DNA of 64,000 nucleotides, from contig JAFWIE010000031.1 in NCBI GenBank assembly GCA_017533825.1, positions 1 through 64,000 on the forward strand, given 5' to 3'. Each line of letters opens with the position of its first letter. Within the stretch, counting starts at the first letter, position 1. The position numbers and the translations under genes were made by a program. Shown here one piece after another: positions 14,299-63,268 of this stretch. The notes under the pieces were generated by a model. The model searched no databases. It had not been told where the DNA came from and saw only the letters and a program-made list of their open reading frames with translations. This DNA is from Atopobiaceae bacterium (lineage in GTDB: Bacteria > Actinomycetota > Coriobacteriia > Coriobacteriales > Atopobiaceae).

Positions 14299-14494
14299 GT
14301 GTGCCTCCTCGCATACTCGCCGCATGCGCGGGCCACTCGGCTGCCCACTCCCCGCGGTATCAAAGGTGTATAAGGAACACTATCATGTTTGCGGTTGAAA
14401 GTCACCCGCACGCGGCGACCATGGACGAGCGAGCGGAATACAAACGGCCAATCGGCGCAAACCCTTCGGACCTAACGGTCGAGTGAAAGAATTA

Positions 14495-14649
14495 GTGCGG
14501 AAAATCGTCAGTATGAAGTCTTGCCAACTGGGCTTTTTTCATCATTGATATCGATTTTCCACACTGGATAAAATAGCCACTGTGGAAAATCGCTATCAAA
14601 ATCGGTAAAATCCCTGTTGACATCGATGTCCCACTACGATTTTCCGCAC
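14495..14649. other. palindromic element E1 (four-arm, conserved core)
   Basis: Four copies of one word alternate in orientation: GTGCGGAAAATCGT (14495-14508), its complement in 14547-14563, the forward form in 14581-14597, and the exact complement ACGATTTTCCGCAC (14636-14649). The middle pair forms a 17-bp hairpin with one mismatch around a loop containing GATAAAATAGC. Right after it is AAAATCGGTAAAA then TCCCTGTTG (14598-14619). Element E2 near 63.1 kb shares loop and core but has different arms. Promoter-like TTGATA-N18-TATTTT spans the hairpin on the feoAB strand. Function unknown. Confidence 0.7.
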
Positions 14650-14710
14650 TTATGCACAATGGTTATAAGCTCTTGCGCGCCAATTGGGCGCTTCCGTAGG
14701 CTTCTAGGTG

Positions 14711-14894
14711 CTACCAGCGGCAGTTCGGGTGCCGCAATCGGCCTTCCGGGCGCTGCCGTTGGCCTTCCGGGTGCTGTCGACGGCCGTCCGGGTACCGCAA
14801 TCGGTCTTCCGAGTGCAACCACCGGCCTTCCGAGTGCCGCAATCGGCCTTCCAGGCGCTGCCGTGGGCCTTCCGGGTGCCGCAATCGGTCTTCC
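14711..14894. repeat. 21-bp tandem repeat array
   Basis: About nine degenerate 21-bp units (CCGCAATCGGCCTTCCGGGTG type) run from 14711 to 14894 between ogt and element E1. A frame through the array would encode Ala-Ile-Gly-Leu-Pro heptads but lacks a ribosome site, so it is scored as non-coding repeat DNA. The rest of 14299-14951 holds E1 and no recognisable gene. Confidence 0.8.
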
Positions 14895-14951
14895 TAAAGG
14901 GCTTGCCTGAGAATTCCCCCAACTATCGCTCACACCTCTTGCGATGATTCC

Positions 14952-62903: not shown

Positions 62904-63030
62904 TGTGCGTCCTCTCCTCGCGCGTCCGTTGACGATGCAAGCATACGAGGCGCACGGGACAAGAATTGCGCATTGACACCGCTTCAGCGCATGGCAACCG
63001 AACGACGCATGTATTCAGGTGCACGTAAGA

Positions 63031-63196
63031 GTGACCAATCAATTATGCAACCAATTACAAAAGCCCAGCTCAGAGAGATTTGCAATGAAACTTGATGTGA
63101 CAATTGGTCACTGCGTAAAATAGCTAGTGACCAATTGTCACATCAAAAACGGTAAAACCCCTGTTGGCGAATCCAACGCCACTGTTAATTGGTCAC
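63031..63196. other. palindromic element E2 (four-arm, conserved core)
   Basis: GTGACCAAT-type words alternate in orientation: 63031-63039, the hairpin arms 63094-63111 and 63127-63144 (a perfect 18-bp inverted repeat), and 63185-63196. The 15-base loop TGCGTAAAATAGCTA and the following AAAAACGGTAAAA plus CCCCTGTTG (63145-63166) match E1 in sequence and spacing although the arms share nothing with E1. It occupies much of the 365-base gap 62904-63268, which otherwise shows no gene. Confidence 0.72.
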
Positions 63197-63268
63197 TTTT
63201 CGAATGGCATACTAATGATGACAGCACAATCCCGCGTCACGCCACGTCATCTATGGGCGCACCCATCA

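Follow-up and report, generated by a model that had tools for sequence, protein, structure and literature searches.

Palindromic repeats that are tied to a single partner gene are described for the REPIN-RAYT systems, in which intergenic palindromes, more conserved at their ends than in their spacers, form a population that spreads, and in which each repeat class has a distinct single-copy, apparently non-mobile partner, the RAYT, with the matching repeat beside its gene (PMC3116915). Two other described proteins bear on the partner discussed below: Rv2827c, an AbiEi antitoxin whose binding sites are four inverted repeats, with 13 bp between the members of a pair (PMC7319586), and I-Bth0305I, an EDxHD nuclease that forms a dimer on its target of almost 60 bp (PMC3943268). 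In the window (the whole 64,000-nucleotide stretch of DNA that was analysed), the elements E1 and E2 belong to a dispersed, genome-wide family of palindromes of 155–170 bp in gut Coriobacteriia. The best reading of our results, and a probable one, is that these palindromes are owned by a nuclease and co-evolve with it, in analogy to REPIN-RAYT with unrelated parts. As with the RAYTs, the partner is a single-copy gene flanked by its own repeat, here at the 3′ side in 29 of 30 cases and never upstream. In contrast to REPIN-RAYT, the partner is an AbiEi-like protein with an EDxHD/Vsr-like domain, whereas a RAYT is an HUH Y1 transposase (PF01797); the elements have four words at fixed spacing and a TAAAATA loop, whereas a REPIN has two GTAG-type ends; and it is the internal core that stays constant while the words change.

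Each element begins with an outer word, a spacer of about 17 nt, CAACTGGnnTTTTACCnnnTTTGAT and the inner word in reverse, which leads into a 13-bp loop with TAAAATA or TATTTTA; the inner word, the complementary core half, a spacer and the outer word in reverse follow. The spacing of the words is constant, at 58/27/58 in class A, to which E1 belongs, and at 58/27/58 or 58/27/69 in class B, that of E2. The features of the two copies are listed here with E-values from covariance model R1, which describes the 93-bp core unit with its arms entered as base pairs.

14494..14650, + strand: E1, complete class A element, 157 bp; word spacing 58/27/58; R1 match E = 2.9e-13
14494..14507, + strand: E1 outer word 1 (AGTGCGGAAAATCG)
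14508..14525, no strand: E1 left spacer, fixed in length and drifting as the flanking DNA does
14526..14549, + strand: E1 left core half (AACTGGGCTTTTTTCATCATTGAT, the 'TTC' variant)
14550..14565, − strand: E1 inner arm 2
14566..14578, no strand: E1 loop, 13 bp, centre TAAAATA
14579..14594, + strand: E1 inner arm 3
14595..14618, − strand: E1 right core half, overlapping the core of the sequence-only reading
14619..14636, no strand: E1 right spacer
14637..14650, − strand: E1 outer word 4
63030..63197, + strand: E2, complete class B element, 168 bp; spacing 69/27/58 read on the + strand; R1 match E = 6.5e-8
63030..63040, + strand: E2 outer word 1 (AGTGACCAATC)
63041..63096, − strand: E2 left half, alternative type (AAAAGCCCAGCTCAGAGAGATTTGCAATGAAA...TTGAT)
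63097..63112, − strand: E2 inner arm 2 (GTGACAATTGGTCACT)
63113..63125, no strand: E2 loop, TAAAATA centre
63126..63141, + strand: E2 inner arm 3 (AGTGACCAATTGTCAC)
63142..63165, − strand: E2 right core half
63184..63197, − strand: E2 outer word 4 (AGTGACCAATTAAC)

These are the only hairpin-type sites in the window, and both are largely as an earlier, sequence-only reading of this DNA had described them, including the 22-base core at 14598–14619 in E1 and 63145–63166 in E2, with 20 of 22 bases identical. Several corrections apply. That core makes up only half of a longer palindrome, which has CAACTGGnnTTTTACCnnnTTTGAT on its left and a partly complementary copy of it on its right. Four copies of a word in alternating orientation, claimed for both elements, are exact in E2 (GTGACCAAT); E1 has GTGCGGAAAATCG exactly at 14495+ and 14637−, with one mismatch at 14552− and two at 14580+. 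Similarly, the hairpin of 17–18 bp ascribed to both takes in E2 the form of a 21-bp inverted repeat without mismatches around a 13-nt gap and in E1 that of an inner hairpin with mismatches. The description of the two words as unrelated, the product of total change, was an overstatement: nearly all words in the genus keep an AGTG/AGTT tip and a loose nnCAAT-like follow-up.

The family has about 35 copies in its own genome (4.2 Mb), and R1 has matches in each of the 16 genomes that represent the genus. With up to three mismatches, the core gave 38 matches in the own genome versus none for reversed-pattern controls, a difference that, with the covariance-model E-values, places the family far beyond chance. 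A search of Coriobacteriia for the 22-base core, as the sequence-only reading had suggested, recovered the family and showed the core pattern to be practically confined to the genus among the 60 related genomes searched. The public contigs with both core and element layout come from Coriobacteriia MAGs of rumen and gut (RUG series, 'uncultured Coriobacteriaceae bacterium'), and in a wider scan of contigs with the core pattern the matches outside Coriobacteriia were mostly chance. Candidate matches also occur among viral contigs. The class A word, with at most one mismatch, is found in the own genome within elements only, plus one likely chance site. Other genomes have other words, among them AGTGGACAATCGTT, AGTGTACATTCTTT, AGTGGGAAATCG, AGTTGCCAAT, AGTGCAAAGTC and AGTGTACGCGCG, with several per genome; more than 12 words are built on one core, and constant termini are absent. 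A further class with GTAGnTGTGAACTC-like words has at least five alternating copies and no TAAAATA loop; its members (L042-L044, L046, L053, L061, L200-L204, L214, L219-L221, L225, L227-L230) share the CAACTGG core and have another half, with GCTGGGCTTTTG or GACCTGCGGTTTTGC.

This variability bears on whether the elements are ordinary MITEs, that is, relics of DNA transposons bounded by terminal inverted repeats, in which case the owner gene would be there by coincidence or as the neighbour of a lost partner. Elements of this size that are palindromic, lie between genes and end in TIR-like words would suit such an origin, and they resemble ERIC, Correia and RUP in being short, non-coding, palindromic, intergenic and multi-copy. 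However, changing termini around a constant core are the opposite of what defines a MITE family, and the arms vary across the genus, whereas remnants of one transposon would have constant arms. In addition, no related transposon or target duplication was found, no transposase or other gene with the words on both sides was found in the own genome, the aligned class A and class B flanks show no consistent target duplication, and it would be left unexplained why every word is linked to the 3′ side of a gene from one protein family. We consider a MITE origin quite improbable. Pairs of elements that could flank a transposon (the C21 and C84 pairs) were discounted, since the intervening ORFs are not transposase-like.

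The arms keep their self-complementarity. In an alignment of 28 diverse copies, 95.5% of the cells in the 16-bp arms are paired, and all 16 pairs show changes on both sides, whereas sliding the partners by one base brings whole-structure pairing down to about 40%. These figures bear out the earlier suggestion that pairing is kept through large sequence change: the arms covary at every pair, and arms in other copies stay complementary. One conceivable source of such pairing is mutational. Quasipalindrome-correction mutations are known to perfect hairpins, and templating of this kind could keep the arms complementary without selection. However, in the same copies the core halves that flank the arms are only 78% paired and keep fixed mismatches (for example, columns 7-8 and 16-18); because these mismatches have stayed uncorrected, palindrome correction does not explain the arms. 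Moreover, copies within a genome share their word even though their spacers, which differ between paralogues, do not match. We regard a mutational artefact as the least credible of the alternatives.

Conservation at orthologous loci instead argues for selection. At ten loci shared between the own genome and G011 (one pair interrupted by an insertion on the right), core and arms are 76–91% identical, versus 48–65% for the spacers and 56% for the flanks. Boxes that are kept while spacers and flanks drift are held in place by selection. The 17–18-nt spacers were also considered as locus-specific guides, an idea that we rejected because orthologous spacers drift like flanks, with a faint common ancestor still to be seen.

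The sequence-only reading had proposed that the four arms act as a structured RNA or attenuation switch, pairing in mutually exclusive ways (1:2, 2:3 or 3:4), and both the several alternative pairings and the strong covariation are compatible with this. However, G-U pairs make up 7 of 448 arm cells and 7 of the 27 non-Watson-Crick cells, with no enrichment among the exceptions. This, together with the mismatches kept in the flanking core, makes the constraint look like one on double-stranded DNA rather than on an RNA switch. In the class B orthologues in G011, changed words are compensated on the partner arm, best for 1:4 and 2:3; 1:4 pairing is retained at 11–13 of 14 positions, whereas 1:2 falls to 6–10. 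The orientation of elements relative to flanking genes is random, which makes a leader RNA for the neighbouring genes unlikely and led us to reject a 5′ leader or riboswitch. Given also that Rfam has no match and that a likely DNA-binding nuclease partner exists, an RNA switch is very unlikely.

That partner emerged from clustering the proteins that adjoin all copies, which yielded one recurrent family, its 3′ end facing the element, in association with several different words. The stop codon lies about 20–130 bp before an element with the matching word in 29 of 30 owner genes, compared with 1 of 48 controls, and the single positive control is the gene adjoining E2. Across the genus, 29 of 30 close-family genes, complete or partial, have a TAnnnTA-loop hairpin 62–186 bp after the stop codon, and in the hairpins 3′ of the 29 owner genes 10–16 of 16 arm positions are paired. 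The geometry of words in these 3′ flanks is constant (60/25/60 for 12-mers in most), and the words were found in the 260 bp upstream of 0 of 26 owner genes. The owner genes of the two classes in the window are as follows.

G000:C36:12598-13719, − strand: class A (E1) owner gene, single-copy, outside the window
G000:C83:56625-57797, + strand: class B (E2) owner gene, single-copy, outside the window

Both have syntenic orthologues in G011, and a search with the class B protein showed that almost every one of the 16 genomes has close copies, some as many as about six. The association extends from the gene-linked palindromes to the dispersed ones. Among 74 dispersed copies, 43 have a gene-linked word of the same genome as their nearest (label shuffles: mean 5.8, maximum 31), and 60 of 74 do so when the own and G011 class A orthologues are pooled. 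Protein distances correlate with word distances, the latter computed as a simple Hamming count with shifts allowed (Mantel r = 0.43, p = 2e-4), more weakly once close pairs are removed (r = 0.23, p = 0.023). For the dispersed words G014 AGTTGCCAAT and G003 AGTGGCCAAT and those of G005 and G004 L036, no owner gene was found in the same genome; since the genomes compared are mostly MAGs, these may be assembly gaps. By sequence comparison, then, the gene very probably owns its palindrome words and co-evolves with them, and the co-varying DNA-binding partner postulated from the window now has a candidate.

Strong matches to the protein are rare beyond the host's taxonomic family. In other genera of that family, many homologues have 3′ inverted repeats with a CAACTGG/CCGCAG-type loop, often as a single hairpin, and six (L422-L425, L438, L441) have no clear 3′ palindrome. 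Distant paralogues (L408, L409, L410, L413), several per genome, look DUF559-like (E 0.15), with E replacing N246; they too apparently have inverted repeats after the stop codon, and for this reason the pairing of gene and palindrome may be much older and wider.

The owner proteins, of about 380 aa, belong to a large unannotated Coriobacteriia family with several copies per genome and have no meaningful sequence match in Pfam, NCBIfam, PADLOC or PDB. An AlphaFold2 model (pLDDT 88.4, from 28 sequences) shows a predicted Vsr/I-Bth0305I-type (EDxHD) nuclease domain behind an AbiEi-antitoxin-like domain. The C-terminal half of the model, in which the predicted nuclease fold spans residues 185–340, matches I-Bth0305I with Z 9.4 over 97 of 97 residues and Vsr with Z 8.2. 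Foldseek ranks Vsr first at a weak E of 0.2, so the nuclease assignment draws on the VIA Z-scores and on E190, D235, H252 and D294, which are invariant in 53 of 53 sequences and were assigned to the EDxHD motif by position, not superposition. The resemblance of the N-terminal half to Rv2827c (Z 5.3 over 116 residues) is only suggestive, and Pfam AbiEi_1 matches weakly (E 0.089) in one family member. The likeness to I-Bth0305I and Vsr thus lies in the predicted fold and the invariant E, D, H and D; unlike EDxHD homing endonucleases, the owner gene is not in an intron, has an AbiEi-like N-terminal half and is linked to palindromes. The likeness to AbiEi proteins, which bind pairs of inverted repeats, extends to the 13-bp loop of the palindrome, which may be compared with the 13-bp gap of the Rv2827c repeats. 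It differs in that no DUF1814 toxin is seen among the gene calls beside the own class A and B owners, that the sites lie 3′ of the gene and dispersed rather than in a promoter, and that a nuclease domain is fused. The family would thus combine a homing-type nuclease fold with an apparent antitoxin-type DNA reader.

In the model that best explains these results, two single-copy genes located elsewhere in the genome own the palindromes of which E1 and E2 are dispersed copies. The AbiEi-like N-terminal half would bind the word, probably as several monomers on four words, and the EDxHD domain (Vsr/I-Bth0305I-type) would nick or cut within the palindrome or beside it; copies could then reach new intergenic places by repair or through a hairpin intermediate. 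The owner gene would stay in place and be inherited vertically, as a RAYT is for its REPINs, while the words evolve with the owner protein and the cores are kept because recognition needs them. We give about even weight to the nuclease driving this spread rather than merely binding. The flanks of classes A and B and a joined-flank search for class B yielded neither an empty site nor a target duplication or transposition intermediate, and at three of the tested class B loci G011 has an orthologous copy instead of an empty site; movement is accordingly a predicted step of the model.

If the protein merely binds, the palindromes could form a regulon, and this is the main rival: the AbiEi-like protein would be a transcription regulator or genome organiser, the palindromes its operators, and the words would drift with the regulator. 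AbiEi-type proteins do bind multiple inverted repeats, and the elements lie between genes and are kept at orthologous loci, where selection acts on the boxes and not on the spacers. However, their orientation to the flanking genes is random, often with 100–300 bp to both neighbours, invariant nuclease residues would not be expected in a mere regulator, and since the words never lie upstream of the owner (0 of 26), AbiE-like autoregulation is not seen. On balance, a regulon is rather unlikely. A second rival is an addiction or defence module, in which the nuclease attacks DNA and the palindromes serve as protective, decoy or sensor sites whose loss is costly. The purifying selection on copies, the several gene-palindrome pairs per genome and the known place of AbiEi-type proteins in toxin-antitoxin and abortive-infection systems would all fit, but no obvious toxin gene adjoins the class A or B owner genes, as judged from gene calls, and no PADLOC model matches. 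Such a module seems improbable.

Palindromes linked to such a nuclease are not described in the open-access papers searched, in keeping with the sequence-only reading, which knew of no described family of this form; the palindrome-nuclease system, selfish or regulatory, looks previously undescribed. The chances seem evenly balanced that it is a second, independent invention of the REPIN-RAYT lifestyle, with AbiEi-EDxHD genes driving the dispersal and upkeep of palindromes and protein and word co-evolving. If the nuclease does spread palindromes, unrelated enzymes would have given rise, on at least two occasions, to bacterial repeat populations owned by a stationary gene; if the protein only binds them, it would represent a regulator family with unusually fast turnover of sites. 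Under either reading, an unannotated Coriobacteriia protein family gains a testable DNA partner, and about 30 ready-made protein-word pairs become available for decoding DNA recognition.

The own genome also holds a separate REP-like system, with a RAYT-like Y1 transposase (L257 1435-2226, G000:C77) that has repeated GGAACAGGGGACGGGTTTT-type sequences upstream; because its flank contains a different repeat, we rejected this protein as the partner. Several elements of G011 carry an insertion close to the hairpin tip, with three different inserted sequences among them (L239 and L243; L242, L244 and L250; L240 and L249). Separate copies have identical junctions, ...TCGTT|TGTCGTCGTTGAGCGAAAATGTCACC, for example, being seen three times, so that insertion sequences seem to favour the palindromes as targets.

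Finally, the surroundings of E1 show two minor features. In the right flank of class A copies, a TATA-like motif (CACTTATGCACAAAnGCTATAT) lies about 11 bp outside one outer word (for example, at 14651–14672 of the window), which gives the class A element a polarity; we rejected a promoter function because a −35 box is not conserved in class A copies. An imperfect tandem repeat (GGCCTTCCGGGTGCCGCAATC...) adjoins E1 at 14720–14900 of the window.
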